Shown here: positions 8,805 to 23,630 of the stretch, piece after piece
Layout: every line of letters begins with the position of its first letter
Numbering within the stretch: the stretch's first letter is position 1
NCBI GenBank assembly: GCA_903813345.2
Contig: CAIIXF020000001.1
Coordinates: 6,451,098 to 6,515,097 of the forward strand
DNA: 64,000 nucleotides
Source: Owenia fusiformis
Taxonomy: Eukaryota; Annelida; Polychaeta; Sabellida; Oweniidae
Direction: 5' to 3'
The notes under the pieces: model-generated
Databases searched by the model: none
What the model saw: the letters and a program-made list of their open reading frames with translations, nothing else
What the model was told of the DNA's origin: nothing
Made by a program: the position numbers and the translations under genes

Positions 8805-11800
8805 TTATGATCCAAATTCCAGGGTATCTTCTGTTATAGGTTTGAAATCAAAAGAGCCTCTACCATCCATGTGTAGATAGTACTGAAAATAAAGAACAAC
8901 GTTTTTCAAAATGATAAAACAAATACAACACACATAGTGTATATCATAGTACTTGTTGAATATTTGAAAGACATTATGATAGTACTTCAAACAGTATCAG
9001 GTTACAAAACGTGAGTGAAATCTGACTTGACTTGAATCAAAAATGAGTTTAAGAAACACATGGTATATAACAAAGACTTATGGAATTACAGGGACATAGA
9101 AATGAGAATACAGTTCCAAAGACGAACTTACAGAGACATATGTCTACCGTGTAACATAGACTATATATAAAACTGACCTCATGGTGTTTCCAAAGGGACT
9201 TTCTATGTGATACAGTGAACAATGTGATGCCCACTTCCCTACAGTATTGGTACATACAAGCCTCCACATCTACACTCACAGCACTAGTGCACTCATCTAG
9301 GATTGCGAATTGGGGTTTGTGATAGAACACACGAGCCATCTAGAACAAGAATGATTTATAATTTCATCTAACAATATCACATTGTGTCATCCAAGATAGT
9401 ATAACTTAATATTTATATGAATACCAATTTCAAAAAGTACCTGAACAACTACTATAGGTTACAAAATTAAAGCATATACAGTGCAAGACTTTTGGGACAA
9501 CTTCATTTAAATTGTGTATTTCTCATTAAGCTGTTACTGCATCTAAGTTATTTGCATTTATGAAGATTGTCAATATCTTCAATATCACTACATCTTGCAA
9601 ATATAATATGAATGCACAATTGCTAGCTTATATCAATACATACAGCAATTCTTTGTTTCTCTCCTCCACTGAGTCTGTCCATCCAATCATGCATAACATC
9701 CCATCCTCCCTCTCTCTCCAGAATGTATGTAAGCTGCACCTAAAACACACAAATACTAAATATGCATCAAGAATTAAATTCATTTGGAACTCATATACTC
9801 ATATCATATATATCTATTTTATTTTTGCAAGTATATAATGCGTACACTTATTACAAACGTTAACACCATTAGTTGGCCATGAATGAATATCAACCATTGA
9901 ATGGATAAATATAATAGACCTATGAAATCATAAGATATGACTTTGGATTTGTGTTTGCTGCTTAGGCACCACAAGTTGGAGACTATAACAATATGTCACC
10001 ACTTCTGGTAGTGACATAATAATACTATTATAAGGACCAACCTTGTCTAGATATTCTTCTAGATCTTTATCAGTCATTTTCTTTTTCTTCAGGTCTTCCA
10101 AACTATCAGGGTATATGACTTGGTCCCGTAGGCTCCCAAGGGTCATGTATGGCCTCTATAAACATATGCAAATTGATATAAAATATTGTAATATGCAGGA
10201 GTATAAAACTAGATTCTTTTGTCCTCTTATACAACATCCTAATTACCACCATATTTACAATGCATATATTTTCACAGGGAAAAATGTTGTTCTGGGAATG
10301 AACCATACATCAGTGTTTTGTAATCGAACACTAGAAATGCAATAACATTTTTACATTGATATAAAAAATGATCATAAGAGAATTAAATTATTTTCTTGTA
10401 TTTGTTTCATTATTGATTTGACAAATCATTAGTAATATTAGTCACTTACTTGTGGAATATAAAACAGTTTTCCTCTCTCAGGTTTTGTCATGGTACCTCC
10501 AAATAGTGGCCATAGCTGAAATAAGAGTAACTTGATTTCTAAATCACATGAAAATCATAATTTGTTCCTTGGTATTATATTAAACTGTGATTTTCAAAAA
10601 GTTGTAAAAATTTTATAATTTGATTACTCAAAACTTGAGGCAGTGCATTTCATGTTTTTCCACATTAAATGTTCATTTCTCCCCTCACCAATATAACAAC
10701 TATTTTTTCTGCAACTGCCAACATTTGGGCACTTTTTCACAAAACCCTTTTTCTTACCTCTCCCACCATTCTGAAAAGTGAGCTCTTCCCACAGCCATTG
10801 GGGCCACAGACTAGAACATTCATTCCTGACTTCACTTCAAAGTTCAGTTCTTCTACTAGAATATCACCATTTGGAGTAACCAGTGGAACTTTCTCAAATC
10901 TGAAATTATCATTATTTTTTCAATAAATGTAGATAGGAATTAACTTTGAATCATTCGTACAGATTTATATATCTAGTAATATAGGAAATGATATATCTTT
11001 AAATGATATACAATACATGTCATGGTTTAACGTTATATCATATGGTATTCATCCTTAAACTTGGGTATTGGTTTCTTTGGCACACCCTATATATCATAAA
11101 TATTCATGCAGGCTGCTTTAAAGGTGTTTGATAAATCACAAAAACAGAAAAAGAAAATCTTCTTTACTCACTTAATTATTTTGTCTTTAATCACCACAGT
11201 TCCCGAGCCAGGTTTAAGATCAGCCTTTTCTTTGATAGCTGAAATATGATTAACAGCATGGGTAAAAGAAATCTTAATCAAGATGTATTTGATTAAATAA
11301 ATCAAGAAATATGATAATTGACAATATGAGGGTTTGTTTCTAGTTTACCCTATATGCATGTAACTGATATATTATGTATATTGTGAAATTCATCTGATTA
11401 CCATGATTGATATTTTACTTGAATCCTTGATCTGCCTACGATCAGAAATTATTATTTTGTGTAGTTTTGACTTTTTGCGAGCCATTCTATAAACAGTACA
11501 TATGAAACTTACAGTTGGGTTTGTCATTCTCAGATACCATTGTCCTGGTATATTTTCCACTGTTTAAGTCATCCAATACTTGGATAAGTTCAGTTATCCT
11601 AGCTGTAAAACTGCAAAATTAAAACAGAATTCATTGACTTTATTTCCTGTCATACTAAACATACATATTACAGAATTCTTTTATCTTTGGGATACTTGGA
11701 AAATAAACAATTGATAATTACACCCTGAAATATTAATAAATTGTAAAATGAATCCACAGAATGCATCCAATTTCTTCATATCTCCTCCCACCTAATGTTA

Positions 11801-14800
11801 ATGTTAAGTATATGAATAGTCTTCTAAAAGTCATGTTTCATTGCTCTCCAATACCATAAACCTAACTCCTTACCCAGCAAGTCTAGTGAGCTCTCTTCCT
11901 GCTAAGACTACACGTCCAATAGCTTCTGCCATACGCACCAACATTCTACCACTGCGGTAGTAGTCCTGAAAAAATGTGGAATTGTAAATATAAAGGAATT
12001 TGAGAAGATAAATACTGAATACTTTCCCTATACTGTACTAACACTTCATATGATCAAATATTGGAATATATTTAGTCCTTAATCTAATCTAACCTTATAA
12101 TGATAAATCAAGGTGTATTGATTATTACAATTAAAACTGTTATATTTTCACCATAGCTTTTACTAAGAAATAGTTATAGATCTATCAAAACCCTAGCCTA
12201 AGATAATACTGCTGCGTATCTAGCAGATTTGGTGTGTGCAAAATTAGAAGTGTTCATATTTACAGCAGAGTGCTTAACATTTGGGAAATAATTTAGATGA
12301 GTGACACACAAATATGGTATCCATACCCCCAAACAAGTTTTATAATGGAGCATTAATCAAATAAAATGTAGCACTCAAAATCAAGTTTAGAATTTTTTAT
12401 CGTGAAATTCTCAAAAGCTACAGCTAAGCTATAAGTAGAAAGCAATTCCAAAATGGACTCTATATATCTATAAATACAGGGTGGGCCAAAAGATTTTGCA
12501 AATAACATTATGGTATTGACATGAAATTTTTTTTTGGCCCACCCTGTATTTGTAGGAATACAAGAACATTGTTCTAATCAACAATACTTATCTACCTCTA
12601 GTCTGTCTGCATGTGCAGTGTTTTCATATTTGTTGGAAAATAAAAATGGCTGACAGACTACCATGTAGCCTACTGTAGTTGCTACATCTGGAAGAACAGA
12701 TAGAAGCAATGCAGGGTATAGAGCCTTAATTATAATTGGATATATTGTAGTCTCTAGTTCTGGATATATAATTAAAAGATTGTAAGGGGAGGGAAGGAAA
12801 TGGAATATGGATTTTCTTCAAATTGATATTGACAGAGGAAAATATACATCATAGTGGCTGAAAAGTTAAATTGAGGTCAAATTGTTCCAAGGAATGAAAT
12901 CAAAGTTCCATCCTGCCCATTGAAACATAGTTACACCATGAAAATTTAACTCATTGCTGGCCAAAGCTATTTTTGGAGGTTTTCTGCTGGTGACTGGCAA
13001 TTTTGATGGAAAATTGAGAAAAATTGCACAATTTCACATTAGCATAAAATGGACTGTATCAACACCCCATGCACTACGTTTTATGTTATTTGTGAAGCCA
13101 ATGGCAATATATTGCACCCAACCACGTTCCCCTAGTAACCCCTACAATATTTGGTAAGGTAATTGGTATAGATTATGTGACAATTATTGGACAGATATGA
13201 TTATGACGCCATAGACGAAATATCTCGAGGTTGGTCAGCAATGACTTAATTATGATGGAATCTTCTTGAATTTTACTGTGTAGATAAAGTAAAGAAGCAG
13301 TTAAATGGAGGAAGCAGTGGTATACCAAAAATATTAAGAAGATTCCATAATAGAGATAATTATTCAAAAATTAGAGGGTTACATCTTTTGTGTAACCCTG
13401 TGCAGTTCAGAATTTTGAAATGTCAGTTTTACTCTGACTGTATTTCCAAAGGAATAGTGTTATTCATGCAATAAGTATGTTTCAAATGTGACCATTATGA
13501 CTGGTGCATCATTGCAAGTTAAGGACCTTACAAAGTATTCCTTGATCCAATTCATTTAATCAAAGGGTGTAAGAGAAAGTACAGTATAAGATTTGAAAGA
13601 ATGTGAAAGCCAAGAATTTTATGCTATCAACAGTCATCAACTGTAAATCCATCATATTTTGCCATGAAACAAACCCATCAGCAAAATATTGAAGTTATTG
13701 TAAGAGTGAATGTCGAAGATCAAATATCTATGACAGTTAGCCCTTAGACCACATAGTATATGACTTATATCTAGCTATCTACAACTAAGTAGCATATATA
13801 GGGGGTTAAACAGTCGAACCTGGACTCTGTCTGAATGTGTAGAGTTGTCATATGTTGGATCAGAAAGATCAAGGAATGGTCGACTGACAACCATAAATCC
13901 AACCATTGTGGCAATGTCTGCAAAATTTCACAAGGTTAACATTGAAAACAAAGAGAAAATCGTAGAAGGTTCAAGAACAACATTGTTGAATACATTAAGT
14001 CCAATTCAATTTCAAATGAGACAAATCCGCCTTCCAAACTGCTCTTCCTGGAAATCTGAGGACAATCTCTTTAGAGAAAGTTGGCCTTCATCACAAATGA
14101 ACTTCATTATTTTTTCCCCAAAATTTATCTTTGTGGGCATCATCTCGAGATTCAATCTGCATTATTCTAAGTGATCAGGATAGGCAACTTGTATCATCAG
14201 CAGAAGCAAGCTGATATTAATCTACAACTTATAGAACTTACTATTAGTAATTCAGGGACATATAAACTATGATTCTTAAATTTTATTGTATTGGACAAAA
14301 TTGCCATATTTACAGAATGAAAGACAAATAAAATTCAAGAATCAAATGTTCTAAATTTTTCAGAAAGGAGATTAAATTAGGCCTGAGACAGAGAAACATA
14401 GAAATGCTTTCAACGATGAAGTTCTGAAGTAAACACAAATCTTTCACTTCAAATTAAAACCTGATTTTTTATGACAGTTATATGAGGATTTCTATCCAAT
14501 TATCTGTCTCATCCTAAGATGTGTGTAAGAGAGGACGTTGGCCAGTAAAGGGCAGGTATGGAATATATTCTTGGTCCACTATAGTGTTCAGCTGTACCTG
14601 AAGCCTGGAACCTTGGGTTGAGTTGATGTAGCGAGGGTCAGACATATCAAAGAATGGCCGACTAACGATAAACCAACCAACAACCAGAGCAAAATCTAAA
14701 AACAATCGCAGAGATTAAAGTCAATTCTTCTGAAATACAAAATTATTGTATGTGACATGATGAATAAGCATTAACTTTTAAATATGTTTTGGCTGAAATG

Positions 14801-17800
14801 TACGTAAAACAGATTTTATTTTCATGATTTAATTTCTCCATTCAATATCTATGAATAAATGTCAATGAATAAAACTGGCAGTGGATATGGTAAGAGAGGG
14901 TCTTATAAATAAAATAGTACATCTAATCATCCAGAATGGAAATGTTGAATTGGGTCGAGTATTACTCCTTTAGGAGAGACATAACAGATGTTGCAAATGC
15001 TCATTTAAAAAGCTGGTCCATTGGTAATTTTAAGATATCACATTTCACAGACTGATATTTTCCTTTTTTAGCTTAGGAAAATTACAATGCATTGTCATTG
15101 TTAATGTCATTTTGACCACCTGGCAGTGGTTTCAGTAACTTTGTGTACAAGAGGCAGATGAAAAATACAAGAGGCGGCATTCAAAATAACCAACTTTACG
15201 CTCCCGACAATGCAAATTCTTGTTATTTTAGAGTCCATGAATTGAAAGAAAGATGTCCACGGTTTGTCAAAGTCATTTCCACGTGTGATGTGGCAAGACA
15301 TGGGCTCCACAAAATAACACCTGGAACTGTGGAATGACTATGGCAACTTATATAGAATGTCATTTACCTTTTATAAGATAACTTACCCTTACACAGGTTG
15401 CATTTCAAAAATCCAAATACACCTGTTGAATTGAACACTTTTGATATAAATCAAAATCTAGAATTGTCATTATTAAAATGAGAGTGATGTATTAATAGAT
15501 GATTCCCTTGTGATTATGTGTATATCAGATTCATTTTAGTTTTTTTACAACCTCCATAGGGTACAGGGTGTTCCAAAAGTAACAGGACTGGTGCTGGTAT
15601 TTTGTTAAATATACACCAATTGTCTTCAAAATTTTACATAATGTACCTTCAAGTTTTGTAACTAAAATTGCCGAATTACATAATTTTTGTCGAAACTGAT
15701 TTAGAAATCCGCCGATGCCTACTCATTGGCCGGCGCCCGGCCCATATGTGGCCTAGGCATTAGAGAGAGACCGAGGTGGGAGATATCCCCCTCCCCTCTA
15801 CACCAAACTTGTTCTCACTAAGTTTTCGAAAATTGCCTGAAAGGCCTCCTCACACATTATTAAGGAAAACATATCAGCAACACATTTTGCGCATTTAACC
15901 ATTTGATAACATATTGTGGATCTTATCTTAATTTGTTAATGTGAATTCGCACCTTCATTTGCATGGAAGACTTTGATAAAATCCTTTTTTTTGATGATCT
16001 TTGTTAGAAAGCTGGTGTTTGGCTAAGCTTCGAAATTTCAAATTGAACAGTCTACTAAGGATACCATGTTGTAAATATTGTTTTCTTTATTTATAATATG
16101 TCGAGCTAGGACTGTTCAAACAAATTCGCTTTTTGTAGCTACAAGTATTTAATTTCAATAGATGATAAACTTCTCAATATAAGAAATTACCCTCATAAGA
16201 CATTGTTGCAAGGTGTGTTGCAATCCCGCATTCCCAGGCCCGCATTATGTATTCTCGAAGAAAGCCATCATGATAAACCATGACATCTCATTTCTTCTCG
16301 GCCAGTAATAATACTTGGCCGGTTGAGTATATATAAGGGTTATGTACTGGGAGGTTTTGGATATGGGGTTTATCCAGAGGGAGATATGCATATCTACCTG
16401 AGGGACCGTAGGGACCGAAGGTAGATGTGCATATATCACGAGGGATGAACCCAATATCCAAACCGACCGTACATAACTGCTTTATCCTATACCAAGTAAA
16501 GTTTTCTAATTTTCTTTCAATTTTTTTTATTTTTTTTATTTTTCCAATTTTCTCACATTTTTCTAATTTTTTTAAAAAAAATTCTATTTTTTTTCTTTTT
16601 CAATTTTTTTTCACATTCCAAGCGGGAAGATATGCCCTGGAGCGGGAGATATGGAGGTTCAGGATATGGAAACCTCAAAATCAGGATACGGGATATATCT
16701 TACCAACTTATCTCCCTTAAACTCTACTTGGCATAGGATAAAAAGGTTTATCCCATACTTGGACGTGTTACGGGTACATAAAGCCGGTTTGAAAAAACTT
16801 ATATTTTCATCAGCTGGCAGATATAGCTTTACGTCCCGCTCCGAGCGGGCAGATATACTATATCTGCCCGCTACGTCATAATCGCCGCTCGCATATTTGT
16901 TCATATTCGTAACGTTCGCGTAATGACTGTAAACTACAATGGAGAAAACACAGACAATCGGGATCTGTTTGATGGTTTAAAAAAGGGAAAGAGCATCCAC
17001 TTAATCAATCAAAAATTCGAGAAAATAAATGTGGGAATATTTGAGAGAACAGGAAAATTCGCCCACGGCCAAGAAAACAAAGCTGGACATGAATATTCTA
17101 AAATATTTCCACGATTGAACAATGTAAACCAGATGACCAAGATTGGTATGGGATAAACATATTATCCTATAGTCGGTTCAGGATATTGGGATTATCCCTT
17201 GGCCAATATAATATATTTTCCCTCGGGACCTGCGGCCCTCGGGCAAATATATTATATTTGCCTCGGGATAATCCCAATATCCTGAACCTCATATAGGATA
17301 ATCTCTATATACATGTCCCAGCTTTTGGTAAGTGGGGGGTCAAACCTCCCCCCATCCACACATACACTTATTTTATCATGCAAGTAACTTCGCATTGTAA
17401 TTACAAGCATGTTATAAACGAGACACCAGGATGATAAGGTATGGGTACAATATAGGGCCCAAATCTTGAGAAAGAGTCGAAGGCATGCAAGGCGAATCCT
17501 GGAAACTCGGGTTCGGGAAAGCGGGATTCACTGTTTGGTTCCGTTGACACCTGTGCGAAACTACATTCATAATTTATCCGACAGTCGCTTTGATAATTTT
17601 CTTTATCTCGTCTGTGACTCGATAAAGAAGAATTATCAAAGCTCATCAAGAATGGACGATCTTGCACAGGTACCCATATAAGAACCTCTATATCTTTTTA
17701 ACACCAATATAAAGATTGAACAACGGACACACTATGTTAAAAATGTTATATCTAATGTGCCAATTCAATGATTTAGCATATCGAAAATATTTTCAACCTA

Positions 17801-20800
17801 AGTGACCATATCGTGACATCACTTAGGTGGCAACATTTTTCAATGTCAATCTTTTCTAAATATGCTAAACTTAAACCTGCACATCGCTCCAAAACGCAAT
17901 ATGTTGACATATATTGTTTTTACATTTTCAAGCTGTAATATAAAGTTTACGTAAATAAAAAAAAAATTCTGCGTAATGTCAAAGAACAATCATTTAGTTG
18001 AAAAAAAAATTTAAAAAAAAGGGGTGAATGCGGGATTCGAACCCGGGCCTCCCGCGTGCAAAGCGAGCATTCTACCGCTAGACCACAGTGATATTATGAA
18101 TAATGGAAGTAATTAAACGCTACTTATTTTGAATGCTATGATTCGGAAGTGACGTCACGTTCTTCATTTAGAAACCTTTCCAAAATCATATCGCTGGCTC
18201 CGATCGAAGCAATTCAATGGAAAATCTTTGAAATGACACATTTATCGTAAGTATTTCTACACAAGATTTGCCCCATTTGTTCATCATTCTATAATCTTTC
18301 ATTAAGCTCAAAATGATAAAGTTCATCCCCGAAACAACCCAAGATTGTGTTTCGGGGCAAAGTCCAGCTTTAAAAAATAAACCAATTTTGACTGTCTAAC
18401 AAGGTTAAAAGGAATTATGTTTTTAATATTATTTTACCTAATTGGTTTCTATGAGAATTAAAATTTTGAAATGCATCTTTCCCTGAACCACTTTCATGCA
18501 TGGATGAGTTCATTGCTCGCTCATCTATCAACCAATTTTCTTGATTTTGTCGGCAAAAAACAAGTGAGGATGATTGGTATGCATCGGTGTGAATATTCGC
18601 TTTAAAGGATAAGTGTGACCTCTTAAAATAAATTCACGATATTTTGAACAAAAAGTCCTTCAAAAACATTTTTGAAATTAATAAATAGTTTCACATTTCA
18701 CACTTTGATAACATTGGATAAGACAACAATATAAGCCAAAGTGGTTTAAATTTTTATATGGGGCCTTTAACTGATTAACACAATTTTACACCCATTGGAA
18801 AGACTGTACCGTGACTGGTTGGACAGAGTTGTATCAATCATGCATGTCCAGTGGAAAATAACCAACTCTGATTATACCAAAGGTTGGAATTTGAATTATC
18901 ATGCACATGATAGTGGTCAGATAGTGATCTAAAATGCATAGCCCAAACGGGTAAAAAATTGGACGGTGTTTACTACTATAATGAGATCAAGTGATCTTTA
19001 CGATTATAGTGAGTTCCATTGCAGTTCGAAACTGAGGTACAAATCATAGACAAGGAAGTGCAAAACAAGATCGCTGAATAAAATAAAGAATAGTCTATAG
19101 AAGACTTTTAATTTTCCCCCAAAACTGAGACAATATTTGACTTCTAGCAAATGGTGGATTATCGAAAACAAACGGCGATTTCGGACACTCGCCCCCTGCA
19201 ATTGAAAGCCCAGCCTGGTCTCAAATCATATCCACAAACCCATTTCCTCGCCTCATGGAAAATCTACTTACATTTTGCAATAATATTATCTACAAGTCCC
19301 ATGCTGAAGCGGAAGAAGATGAAAGTCCTGAGATGTTCTACCAGTTTCCAGAACTGGGCAGTTATTGTTTTCCTCTCTCGCTTATTTCCTTGGTAGAATG
19401 CTACCTCTTCACTGAAACAGAGAATGTTTAAAAAATAATGAGTCTTGAAAATTTTGACTACATTGACCTATAATTTGTATAACAGAAGAGTGTCTCCTTT
19501 AGGCTAGCTCAATACCACTTCTTACATAATTGTACTATTAAATACATCATATGAAAGATACTAAACCCATTGGCCTACCTGTTAGTAATAAGTCTTGAAT
19601 TAACATATCTGAACTCTCCCTCCAGTCTTTGTTCTACAACTGTCATCTTGCCTATAGGTCTACGTAACCTGGTCAATATAAGACCCGAAACAGCCAGGTA
19701 CAGCAACATATAGCCTGGGCCCTGAAATAACATCATGACCATTCTCTTATTTTTAGGCCTTTACAAATATTAGCTAGACTTACAAAAGACATTGCTACAT
19801 AGTGACCTTGCAGTGTAACTGTTGATCTTTAACACTACAAAGACAATCATAATGAACTGGAAAATAGATGCATATCATGTGAAGATATGACAAGAATTGT
19901 TATACTATTGGTCACAATTAGCAAGATTGCATTGGAATATTGGGCTGCACTATATGCAATAACCACTCATTGAGACTTGAAAGTCCCTTTGACAGATGAA
20001 TGCATGGTTTATCATCAACAAAGCAATTATGACTTTGTTATCATATACTGACATGCTCCTTTAAGGCTAGTGAGTCTGACTCAATGCAAGTGAATATGCT
20101 TTACCTGTATTCCTATAGCACCAGTTAGTTTGACAGAGTATAGTATGATGTCTATGACAGGCTTGCTGAGGTTGGAGTAGAGATCAGCCACACTGTTACA
20201 GAACCTCTCTACATCTGTGGTCAGCAATTGATCAGCATTAGCTATCCTATTGTCCAGATTTGTCATCTTGTAGTATGTGAAGCCTCTGAAAGATAAGACA
20301 GAAAAATTAGGAAATTGATTTTCAGATTGGGGTTAATTACATATTTAGCAAGATATGGTTAATGAGCCTTATTATGGTCATTAAATTCTAAAGATGTTCA
20401 AGAAGTTAAATGTAAGGCACTTTCATTAAAGATTCACAATTTATGATTCTTAAACATTAACATCAGAAATTAATCACTTCTATTTCTAACAAAATGACAG
20501 CTCTATATTTTGGCAGTTAAGGATTACGAGTAAATAAATATAGCAAACCACTAGTGACAAAATAATTTTATTTCAAATAAACATCAGCGTCTTACTTGAG
20601 ATATCTGTCATAGAGGTACATGGTCAATCTTGTCCTAAACCTGAGTTTCAGTTCATTCAGACCATACTAAAATAACAAAACAAATATAGTGTTTTGTGTT
20701 ACATTACAAAAATTGTATAGGTGGCTGGGCAATCAGCAATGATCCATTTGATGTGAGACCTAATTTCCCATTGGTGTGAAAGTGATAATAAAAATGGGAG

Positions 20801-23630
20801 TCTTATCAAGTATTTCTTCTACAATAAATGGATGAATGAAGTGTCTAACTCTCTTATTTCTAAAACACAGTGTAGACAAGAACATTGAATACATGACTGT
20901 TTATTTTAGTTTTGGATAACTTCTCTCCGATATTCTTTTTGTACAACAACAAGTGTTCAAAATGCTATATTAATAAATTAAGAGTTCTTACCTTAAGCAT
21001 GTTGTTGATCACAGAGATCTACAAAATAAGACAAACTTATATGAGATGTTACTAGTTTACCACACATATTTATGATGATTATAAAAGCAATAGTAGAATG
21101 AATTTTAAGAGATTAAATGCTCTGTTCATATTTGGAAATTTAAATGATTTCTTCTGGAACTGGCATTTATTCCCCATCCTTATCCACTCTCTCTTAAGTC
21201 TAAAATTAGATTTTGATATTACAGTTTTGTGCCTTTGATAAAGGTGATAATCCTACTTACGGCAGGCATGGCCCACATGAATTTGAACAAATGTTTCTTG
21301 AAGAGACTCATATCTCGACTGATGATGGCACTGGAATCAAAAAAACAAGAAAAATATGTTGCGTTCAAGTGGCACTTTAGCACACATGTAGGGTACTTTA
21401 TTAAATAATATAAAAATTTCTAGTCAAAGTAAAAATTGTCATTATCCATTCTTTCTTCAGAATTACTTACTCAAGAACTACATTTACTATACTCTAGCAA
21501 TTTCATAAAATTAATTAAAGAGATTTGCTCTACTGTATTATAAGTTGTGAATACCTTTCTATTGCTGTTCCATTCTGTATCATCCAAACATCACAGAATG
21601 TTCGAAGAAGTAAACTAGCAGCTACCATTATCATGTAGGCAACCTGAAAACAACACGATTTACAGTATGTACGCATGTGACCAACAGAATAAGCAATGCT
21701 GCATGCTACTTGGCATAGATAAGACCCTAAAATCGTTTCTAAAGTCAAAGAAATTTGACTACATACAGTTGTTTTTTCCTATTACATATTTCTAATACTT
21801 AAACAATTTAGTTATTCAAAACAATCAATAAAAATCATAAAAATGACATCAACATATTTACTTTTACACATACAAATATAGAATTATCAAATAGAGAATG
21901 CAGCTTTACCTCTGTTGTGAAGAATCCTGGCACTAGAATACGCAGGATTGTCTTGAACCTCCTGAAGAATAAACCATCAACAGCAGCCCTCTCTTTCTTC
22001 TGTTTCTGTAACCATGACAATGACAACATATAGAGAATGGTTCCTAGAGAACAACTACAGAGAAGAAGGAAATGTATGTTTTTCTTTGAGAGAATGGCAG
22101 GATCAAAAGGTATGCGTTAAAGATGGCCTGGCCAACACATAGACCCTTAGACTTCATGTTAAGAAGTCGATTATTGTTAAAAATGCACCTTACCCTGATT
22201 TTTGCAAAGAAATATATTTTTCCATTTAGAACATGAATTTATTTTTTACATATTACAGCCTTTAAAATTCTTCAAATCAAATCAATGTGTCTTTTTTCTC
22301 CCACAGAAAAGTAGAAAACTTGTCTGTGTAACTGTTTGTCCAAATGGTCTTTTAACTTACCCCATTGTCAAGTTTCACTTCAACTTTTGTATCTAATGCA
22401 TGTTTCCTGTAAAATATACAACAATGAATAATTAACATGTAGATGACATACTATATATATTGCTATGACCATGGTAGTGTTATCGTGAAAGCCTGGTATA
22501 ACTGTGACAATGCTATTATACTGTATATTGCAATTTGCAAGGCCTGTCATGACTGTGGTAATGTTAAAGCCTGATATGACCGTGACAATGCTATATTATA
22601 TTGCAAGGCCTATCATGACCGTGGTAATGTTAAAGCCTGATATAACCATGACAATGGTTGTAAGGTCTGTCATAATTGTGGTTATGTTAAAGCCTGATAT
22701 GACTGTGACAATGGTTGCAAGGCCTGTCTTGACATTGACTGGGTAATGTTAAAGCCTGATATGACCGTGACAATGCTATATTATATTGCAAGGCCTGCCA
22801 TGACTGTGGTATTGTTTAAGCCTGATATAACGGCAACAATGGTTGCAAGGCCTGTCATGACCGGGTAATGTTATAGCCTGATATGACTGTGACAATGGTT
22901 GTAAGGCCTGTCATGACAGTGGTAATGTTAGATGGGTTTTGGTTACATGTACAAGCGTACATGTATATAGTCTAGATTTCAATATTTAAGGTATTTAATT
23001 TCATTACGGTGTTAATAGAAATCAAGATAAGTAAAAGAGACCGACTTGGGCAAGGCTCCTTGCGCAACTTATCAACACTTATAATAACATGGTGACAGTT
23101 GTGCCAGGCATAAGTCTTGCAGCAGATAGGGTCTCTTCTGCTGCCCCCCCCCCCCCCCCAGTCCTACCCCTGTGGCAATACTATTTCCTAGGACAAGAGA
23201 GGGGTGTACTAGACTATTACTTTTTTCAATACACAGAATGACATGACAGATATAATTAATCTAAAAATAGGTCTATAGTCAGAGTCTATTCAATATATAT
23301 GTTCAGTATAGTTGTGTATCATCTGGGCTTATTCTAGTCTAGTCATACATGTATGCATAGTTGATTCAAGTTGATGGCCATGCTAGTCACACATGCACTT
23401 TGACTTTCCAGGTCAAATTTTGGGACTAAAAATTAGATTTGTTTGAAAAAAAATTCACAACTTTTCAATAGTCAAGTTAACATCCAATATCATACTTTTT
23501 AGAGGTATACTCACTTTGCACTTGCTCTTCTAGATAAGAGCTGACTATACCAGAATACTCCTGCGAACGCTGATGCAACAATAGCTGTTTTCTTCGGAGT
23601 TATTTCTCCGAGTTTACTAAGTACAGACAT
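8805..23630 (-). CDS. ABCD3: ABCD3/PMP70-like peroxisomal half-ABC transporter, complete gene
   Basis: The product imports fatty acyl-CoAs into peroxisomes as a dimer of half transporters. Exons in transcript order: 23515-23630, 22361-22406, 21910-22005, 21555-21643, 21261-21330, 20992-21018, 20596-20666, 20105-20285, 19579-19721, 19272-19411, then one of three alternative exons, then 11874-11965, 11513-11610, 11172-11238, 10758-10899, 10450-10515, 10042-10155, 9644-9739, 9178-9339, 8805-8882. All phases join. With the 98-nt alternative exon the total is 663 aa, close to the family's roughly 659. The transmembrane half runs to about residue 390. The nucleotide-binding half has Walker A GPNGCGKS (477-484), signature LSGGEKQR (575), Walker B AILDE (D599/E600) and the H-loop histidine (629). 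The start is supported by an in-frame TGA 12 nt upstream. Confidence 0.96.
9178..10899 (-). CDS. ABCD3: ABCD3 nucleotide-binding domain exons (Walker A to H-loop)
   Basis: Five exons encode most of the ATPase domain. 10758-10899 carries Walker A; 10450-10515 carries the [12 protein letters not shown] segment; 10042-10155 carries [17 protein letters not shown] with a lysine-rich insert; 9644-9739 carries the LSGGEKQR signature; 9178-9339 carries Walker B LDE and the TVSHR switch. All catalytic residues expected of an active ABC ATPase are present. The donor of exon 10042-10155 is weak (GTTGGT), and a repeat-family copy starts about 24 nt into that intron. Confidence 0.95.
9967..10018 (-). repeat. 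GTCACCAC repeat-family fragment in an ABCD3 intron
   Basis: On the minus strand this reads TATGTCACTACCAGAAGTGG and continues into GTGACATATTGTTATAGTCTCC, the left end of the family also seen at 31904 and 42223. Only the left part is present. It lies just inside the intron after the exon that ends at 10042. Confidence 0.6.
12477..12546. mobile_element. 70-bp mariner-like MITE
   Basis: The ends are perfect inverted repeats (CAGGGTGGGCCAAAA and its complement). TA dinucleotides flank the element at 12475-12476 and 12547-12548, the Tc1/mariner duplication. It sits about 50 nt downstream of the 5' splice site of the third alternative ABCD3 exon and could form a stable hairpin in the pre-mRNA. 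There is no coding capacity. Confidence 0.85.
12596..12687 (-). CDS. ABCD3: ABCD3 alternative exon C (third tandem copy)
   Basis: 92 nt, read as [20 protein letters not shown] then [11 protein letters not shown], 31 residues after the shared T from the upstream exon. It is flanked by CTTCCAG and GTAGAT. It has the same phases as copies A and B (enters in phase 1, leaves in phase 0) but is two codons shorter. It replaces the SRPF core with CQPF and lacks the DLS/DMS acidic step. The reading frame is open and splice sites are intact, so a functional exon is more likely than a relic. It occupies residues 327-357 when used. Confidence 0.88.
13820..13917 (-). CDS. ABCD3: ABCD3 alternative exon B (second tandem copy)
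   Basis: 98 nt, encoding [20 protein letters not shown] then [13 protein letters not shown]. This copy looks closest to the vertebrate ABCD3 segment ([10 protein letters not shown]). The acceptor is TTTGCAG. The donor GTTCGA is weak because +3 is T and +5 is not G, which could make its use conditional. The phase is identical to copies A and C. A 109-codon plus-strand ORF over this exon is an antisense shadow. Confidence 0.9.
14598..14695 (-). CDS. ABCD3: ABCD3 alternative exon A (first tandem copy)
   Basis: 98 nt, encoding [20 protein letters not shown] then [13 protein letters not shown]. It has acceptor TTTAG and donor GTACAG. It is the first of three tandem versions of the exon that lies between 19272-19411 and 11874-11965. 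The segment corresponds to a late transmembrane helix plus the following loop of the family. Skipping all three copies joins T to GA and gives an immediate TGA. Splicing two copies together shifts the frame into a TAG in exon 11874-11965. Confidence 0.92.
15563..15600 (+). repeat. Single mariner-like terminus
   Basis: A lone TACAGGGTGTTCCAAAAGTA end resembles a Tc1/mariner inverted terminal repeat. I did not find its partner nearby, so this is probably a degenerate relic inside the large ABCD3 intron. Confidence 0.4.
16329..17300. repeat. Cluster of three palindromic elements in the ABCD3 intron upstream of the exon cassette
   Basis: Three separate inverted repeats occur: 16329-16491 (arms of about 75 nt around GAGGGACCGTAGGGACC), 16842-16874 (perfect arms GCGGGCAGATAT) and 17163-17300 (arms of about 60 nt sharing GGATAATCCCAATATCCTGA). 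The first and third share a GGATA/GGTT/ATATTGGG vocabulary and look like one family. A T-rich low-complexity stretch lies at 16501-16610. ORFs over these arms are palindrome artefacts. Confidence 0.75.
18021..18092 (-). pseudogene. tRNA-like sequence (tRNA pseudogene or SINE head), anticodon TGC
   Basis: The minus strand carries a consensus A box (TGGTCTAGCGG) and a consensus B box (GGTTCGAATCC). The anticodon stem is CTCGC/GCGGG with loop TTTGCAC, giving TGC (Ala). A pol III-type T run follows directly. The acceptor arms (ATCACTG and ATTCACC by alignment) do not pair, and the last T-stem pair is C-C, so a working tRNA is unlikely. The body resembles tRNA-Gly(GCC) more than tRNA-Ala. It lies in an ABCD3 intron in the same orientation as the gene. 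Confidence 0.6.
22468..22932. repeat. Minisatellite, 56-66 bp unit, ABCD3 intron 1
   Basis: Seven or so imperfect units share the phrases GTTAAAGCCTGATATGACCG and GCAAGGCCTGTCATGACYGT. Successive GTTAAAGC starts are 56-66 bp apart. The short ORF over the repeat is an artefact of the tandem structure. Confidence 0.85.

Follow-up and report, generated by a model that had tools for sequence, protein, structure and literature searches.

Three tandem copies of a transmembrane exon in ABCD3 of the annelid Owenia fusiformis bear marks of mutually exclusive splicing

The ABCD3 locus and its three tandem exons

The window, that is, the whole 64-kb stretch of Owenia fusiformis DNA that was analysed, harbors on its reverse strand a complete ABC transporter gene of this annelid (Table 1). 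The top match of the gene product among PDB structures was human ABCD3 (1015 bits, E value printed as 0), far above human-type ABCD1 (488 bits) and ABCD4 (227 bits). Judged by its nearest solved relative, the gene is ABCD3 (PMP70), the assignment that an earlier note on this DNA had made from the letters. In the gene model, the mRNA comprises 20 exon positions, one of which is filled by one of three copies, named E1, E2, and E3. With E3, the predicted protein is identical to a deposited O. fusiformis protein (P0121) in 661 of 661 residues, indicating that the gene model is right. From orthology, the protein would be located in peroxisomes and would transport branched acyl-CoAs.

Table 1. Features of the ABCD3 gene in the window (positions are those of the window; residues in human numbering)
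Feature	Position	Strand	Remarks
ABCD3 (PMP70) coding region	8805..23630	-	ATG at 23630, stop at 8805; spliced model with GT-AG introns
Upstream constant exon	19272..19411	-	Ends in phase 1 (T of a Tyr codon, human Tyr323); donor GTAAGT
E1 alternative exon, 98 nt	14598..14695	-	Trp at 330, Leu at 326; weak acceptor and donor
Intron E1/E2, 680 nt	13918..14597	-	Gene model coordinates
E2 alternative exon, 98 nt	13820..13917	-	Phe at 330; weak acceptor and donor
Intron E2/E3, 1132 nt	12688..13819	-	Gene model coordinates
E3 alternative exon, 92 nt	12596..12687	-	Tyr at 330; two residues shorter; CQ replaces SR
Downstream constant exon	11874..11965	-	Enters in phase 0; DYYRSGRM..., start of TM6

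The coordinates, lengths, GT-AG splice sites, open frames, and shared phases that the note had described for the three tandem exons were all confirmed. Each exon enters in phase 1, finishing the Tyr codon begun in the constant exon, and leaves in phase 0. Skipping all three creates a TGA at the junction, as had been claimed. The accompanying claim that any two exons lead to a TAG in the next exon held for E1 plus E2 (at nt 56) but not for E1 plus E3 or E2 plus E3, both of which already stop within E3, at a TAG at nt 4; all three exons together stop at a TGA at nt 62 of E3. Since every other combination stops early, one exon per mRNA is the sole workable arrangement. The shared phases and the frame logic are what mutually exclusive exons would be expected to show, in agreement with the note.

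The encoded peptides share 19 of 33 residues between E1 and E2, 16 of 31 between E2 and E3, and 11 of 31 between E1 and E3; the placement of the two-residue gap in E3 is uncertain, with several positions tied. When compared by tblastn, E1 and E2 matched each other at an E value of 4e-10, and E2 and E3 at 1.4e-6 and 4.8e-6. The homology of E1 to E3 depends on each matching E2, since the direct E values were only 0.009 and 0.016. A fourth copy was sought with the three peptides across the 64-kb window, and none appeared at an E value below 0.2.

These properties can be set beside the features listed for mutually exclusive exons in the relevant part of PMC3228551, namely similar length, compatible splice sites and frame, homology, internal neighbours, and exactly one exon per transcript. 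The lengths of 98, 98, and 92 nt lie inside the 20-residue difference permitted in that scan; all sites are GT-AG with phase 1 in and phase 0 out; the peptides are homologous, although the E1-E3 pair is weak by itself; and the constant exons in Table 1 flank the cluster. The use of one cluster exon per transcript is suggested by the frame argument together with the one deposited protein, which carries E3. In the same source, 90 of 16,180 non-exclusive fly exons also have these features.

Elsewhere in the window, tblastn revealed no second copy of the ABCD3 gene, nor a second copy of another ABCD3 exon (21330-21261 or others) at a convincing E value. The 57 matches in the genome outside the locus correspond to more distant ABC genes, the best of them, on contig C5, with 33% identity over 285 residues; shorter ABC-domain pieces reach up to 65%. 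Among these 57, which come from a search that scores its best candidates, no intron-less copy recording a spliced exon choice was found. An ABCD1/2-like paralogue (G000:C5, L028:954-2360) contains 15.9 tandem copies of an 89-bp unit, which match at 96%. The unit combines an acceptor-like site with the initial portion of the Walker B exon, and by tblastn only the 3'-most copy continues into the remainder of that exon; the array is a candidate case of 3' splice sites multiplied by recent amplification. Finally, the intron preceding E1 holds a tRNA-like match (18087-18029, minus strand) that scores 30.9 bits against an Rfam threshold of 29 and was not called by ARAGORN, and it is probably a tRNA-derived short repeat.

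Age, constraint, and splice sites of the exons

Comparison with other animals set E2 apart from its neighbours. E2 was the best-scoring exon for 88 of the 90 animal segments that were readable by motif among the best 120 of 329 passing proteins, and the remaining two tied between E1 and E2. By sequence comparison, E2 is the copy that resembles the ABCD3 of other animals, and E1 and E3 are divergent. With the NG86 method, E1 and E2 gave a dN of 0.371 and a dS of 2.949 (dN/dS 0.13), and E2 and E3 a dN of 0.355 and a dS of 2.150 (dN/dS 0.17); for E1 and E3, the NG86 dS was not computable. The LWL85 method gave 0.383 and 1.592 for E2 and E3 (dN/dS 0.24). Since synonymous sites are near saturation, the exon duplications are old.

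Neutral decay was evaluated by simulating one neutral branch, at six branch lengths with 6000 runs each. A joint match required an open frame, a residue identity no lower than observed, and a codon identity no higher than observed; its highest P was 0.0013 for E1 and 0.014 for E3, so that neutral drift of either exon since duplication appears to fit poorly. When all differences were taken as neutral, 22 of 20000 runs attained the residue identity of E3. Neutrality was not rejected by a cruder simulation that worked on raw difference counts and treated half of the differences as neutral (4141 of 10000 and 4955 of 10000); as it takes no account of saturation, we regarded it as too weak a test, and it is superseded by the joint simulation.

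Deposited proteins were also searched for relatives of the divergent copies. A search with residues 305-385 of the E1 isoform (329 of 362 candidates passed) contained no E1-like or E3-like relative among the best 120 of the 329; this absence is weak evidence because Owenia P0121 itself, with identical constant residues, was not among the matches listed. A search with residues 322-364 of E1 returned zero candidates, and one with residues 322-366 of E3 passed 8 of 10 candidates, these being Owenia itself, cnidarian ABCD3, and one further protein. No deposited protein with E1 or E2 emerged from these searches with E1 and E3. Among the cnidarians, corals and anemones have strongly differing TM5 segments (P0097 and P0105 versus P0123, P0122, and P0124), e.g., GFSVVSRPFLSKSSTRHINSTHSERME; this may reflect divergence or the presence of additional alternative exons. 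In Capitella teleta, the annotated TM5 segment (P0079) is likewise unusual (FFVVSRPFLNITNDRMSNMSQSVRMK).

Splice-site strength was ranked on a scale built on the 18 constitutive introns of ABCD3 itself. The donors of E1 and E2 each beat one of the 18, and that of E3 beat 12; among acceptors, E1 beat 2, E2 beat 3, and E3 beat 12. Complementarity to U1 was equal for the three donors, at 6 of 9 positions each. E3 is also the exon present in the deposited P0121. As for the O. fusiformis annotation, the relevant part of PMC9977687 reports RNA-seq support for 31,678 of 31,903 transcripts, does not name the ABCD3 transcript, and describes gene models made with Trinity, StringTie, Portcullis, Mikado, Augustus, and PASA. 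With introns of 680 and 1132 nt between the copies and GT-AG sites throughout, a lack of room between exons or the use of two spliceosome types would not explain the exclusion. Docking-selector pairing between introns was tried as well and set aside: among six intron pairs, the best stems never scored above the highest of 12 crude dinucleotide-block shuffles and one tied with it, in a test on one genome that has little power.

The variable segment and the coenzyme A site

By alignment to human ABCD3, the variable segment corresponds to residues 323-355, and alignment and structure model agree with the note in placing it at a late transmembrane helix and the adjoining loop, here the end of TM5 and the TM5-TM6 loop. 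The model of the E3 isoform (mean pLDDT 70.9, pTM 0.61) shows two helices, 290-343 and 353-404, joined by a loop; because most of residues 336-363 fall below a pLDDT of 50, it supports the helix-loop-helix layout only. According to the structural account in the consulted part of PMC11369193, phytanoyl-CoA touches Ala321, Lys322, Thr326, and Tyr330 in TM5, Gly372 in TM6, and Glu111 in TM2 of the other subunit, with Tyr330 stacked on the CoA adenine and Val215, Ile374, and Val375 contacting the acyl tail. Substrate-stimulated ATPase activity is reported there to be reduced by Y330A, K322A, and E111A and abolished by Y323A.

In Owenia, the constant exons encode Ala321, Lys322, and the positions of the reported acyl-tail contacts, and the variable exon carries the residues near the CoA head, Tyr323, Thr326, and Tyr330 (human numbering). 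Tyr323 is retained with all three exons. Position 330 is Trp in E1, Phe in E2, and Tyr in E3; position 326 is Leu in E1 and Thr in both E2 and E3; and positions 334-335 read SR in E1 and E2 and CQ in E3. Among 60 distinct animal segments (59 from the fetched proteins other than Owenia, plus human), residue 330 is Tyr in 54, Phe in 6, and Trp in none, residue 326 is Thr in 59, residue 334 is Ser in all 60, and residue 335 is Arg in 59. Since positions 330, 326, and 334-335 vary, exon choice would change where the CoA head is seated as well as the loop on the matrix side. E3 lacks the SR pair found in almost every other segment and might be a poor transporter.

The note had proposed that the worm adjusts, through the exon it uses, which acyl-CoA or bile-acid-like substrates enter peroxisomes. 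As worded, this is unsupported, the reported acyl-tail contacts being encoded by constant exons. For that reason, and because CoA is common to all substrates, a tuning of CoA handling, in affinity or turnover, seems likelier than a choice of fatty acid; an effect on how firmly CoA is gripped, on turnover, or on the gate at the matrix side would be the better fit.

In vertebrate records, the swap concerns a different ABCD3 exon. Thirteen pairs of proteins among the matches listed were compared, and in 8 of them, database isoforms from eight species, the members differ in one 23-residue block corresponding to human 113-135 (P0017/P0018, P0013/P0015, P0014/P0036, P0051/P0053, P0062/P0064, P0083/P0084, P0095/P0099, and P0028/P0029). 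The species are seven cyprinid, loach, and shad fishes and one frog, Hyla sarda. The block is the sole difference in seven of the eight pairs, the eighth (Chanodichthys) also having an N-terminal extension; the remaining five of the 13 are the same in the block or represent different gene models, and two Solea proteins, which belong to two species, were not counted as a pair. The second version of the block was seen in 22 of the 98 proteins, of 125, in which it was readable. The block lies at the start of TM2 and begins two residues past Glu111, a contact of the same CoA adenine as Tyr330; its counterpart in Owenia is exon 21330-21261, single-copy in the window. It has the look of another, independent set of two mutually exclusive exons, so that exon swaps next to one adenine seem to occur in two lineages, with a different exon in each. 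A broader reading, in which the grip on CoA is set by splicing and one ligand site has been tuned by exon swaps at least twice, by convergent routes through the Owenia TM5 exon and the vertebrate TM2 exon, is a speculative one that we would not expect to hold.

A model of exon choice in Owenia ABCD3 and comparison with known systems

Overall, these results indicate that the triplicated exon of Owenia ABCD3 is real and old and bears the marks of mutually exclusive splicing. We consider it likely, taking the whole together, that E1 to E3 are tandem duplicates used one per mRNA and that their swap alters CoA handling. The part concerning splicing, that the three descend by tandem duplication from one ancestral ABCD3 exon and are used singly, can be held with good confidence; the part concerning function, that the swap changes the hold on the CoA moiety of acyl-CoA, is put forward tentatively and falls somewhat short of even chances. 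From one gene, the worm can probably make the pump in three versions, with E1 and E2 presumably spliced in as well as E3. E3, which has the best splice sites and is the annotated exon, would be the default; E1 or E2, whose splice sites are weak, would be picked under regulation, when helped; and transcripts with none or several of the exons would be removed as nonsense. The swap would then alter the hold on CoA and the movement of the TM5-TM6 loop on the matrix side, given the changes in the adenine-stacking ring (330), in residue 326, in the SR pair at 334-335 in E3, and in the loop.

Other explanations were weighed against the same observations. E3 alone might be used, with E1 and E2 as undecayed relics of old duplications; E3 is the sole copy in a deposited protein, both E1 and E2 have weak splice sites, the search with residues 322-364 of E1 found no E1-like protein, and the half-neutral simulation on raw counts is compatible with such a history. 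We nevertheless regard it as distinctly improbable, since E2 retains the sequence common to other animals (best for 88 of 90, the other 2 tied with E1), dS is near saturation at a dN of 0.36-0.37 with joint P values of 0.0013 (E1) and 0.014 (E3), and none of the three exons has lost its open frame, phases, or GT-AG sites. The early stop in every combination except single inclusion would also suit a brake on expression, with unproductive splicing of two exons or none setting the ABCD3 level and the protein sequence mattering little. A pure brake, however, needs no conservation of amino acids, and exons that stay open, ABCD3-like, and low in dN/dS make this the least credible of the accounts, with very little probability.

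A further alternative accepts that the exons are alternative and holds that the swap mainly affects membrane targeting, folding, or dimer stability instead of CoA handling. PMC11369193 cites a title according to which hydrophobic stretches close to TM1 and TM5 matter for the targeting of PMP70, and the changes in E3 lie in the loop, of which residues 339-346 are unresolved in the ATP-bound human model described in that source. Against this, E1 alters both Thr326 and Tyr330, two named CoA contacts, and residue 330 differs in all three exons; we consider this alternative unlikely, though the most serious of those weighed here.

Import of acyl-CoA into peroxisomes is usually seen as governed by which ABCD gene is expressed. 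If the preferred reading, one duplicate exon per mRNA with a change in CoA handling, is true, splicing would also adjust this import, through three versions in Owenia and a separate swap in vertebrates. The three natural variants at residue 330, a position whose importance is indicated by mutation (Y330A in PMC11369193), offer a direct test of the role of this contact.

This type of splicing is already known, and for ABCD3 no description of mutually exclusive exons was found in open-access main texts; 'ABCD3' is absent from the main text of PMC5740500, and 'ABCD' from that of PMC9741552. The earlier statement that none is known in ABCD transporters agrees with these searches for the TM5 exon but has to be qualified for the family by the vertebrate records, which swap another ABCD3 exon.

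The nearest parallels differ from Owenia ABCD3 in several respects. According to PMC7434440, mrp-1/ABCC (Yue et al. 2017, cited there) is likewise an ABC transporter whose homologous exons lie in tandem and are included singly, an arrangement stated to have evolved independently in several lineages, annelids among them. It belongs to subfamily C and its exons are described as exactly equal in length, whereas Owenia ABCD3 is of the peroxisomal subfamily D with 98, 98, and 92 nt; the title of the mrp-1 paper points to competing RNA structures, in contrast to Owenia ABCD3, where no such pairing was found. The same source describes coq-2, whose two exons of 134 nt (6a and 6e) are also mutually exclusive, in annelids too; coq-2 is an enzyme with a demonstrated substrate switch and RNA-seq support, whereas in Owenia ABCD3 a functional switch and the use of all three exons are predicted from the sequence. 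Structures of the orthologue ABCD3/PMP70 (PDB 9ngj, 9w62, 8z9x, 8z0f, and others) locate the segment, of which the human protein has a single form. In the vertebrate isoform pairs (113-135), the same transporter likewise undergoes a homologous swap the size of one exon beside the same CoA adenine, although there it involves the start of TM2 in two versions and in Owenia the end of TM5 in three.
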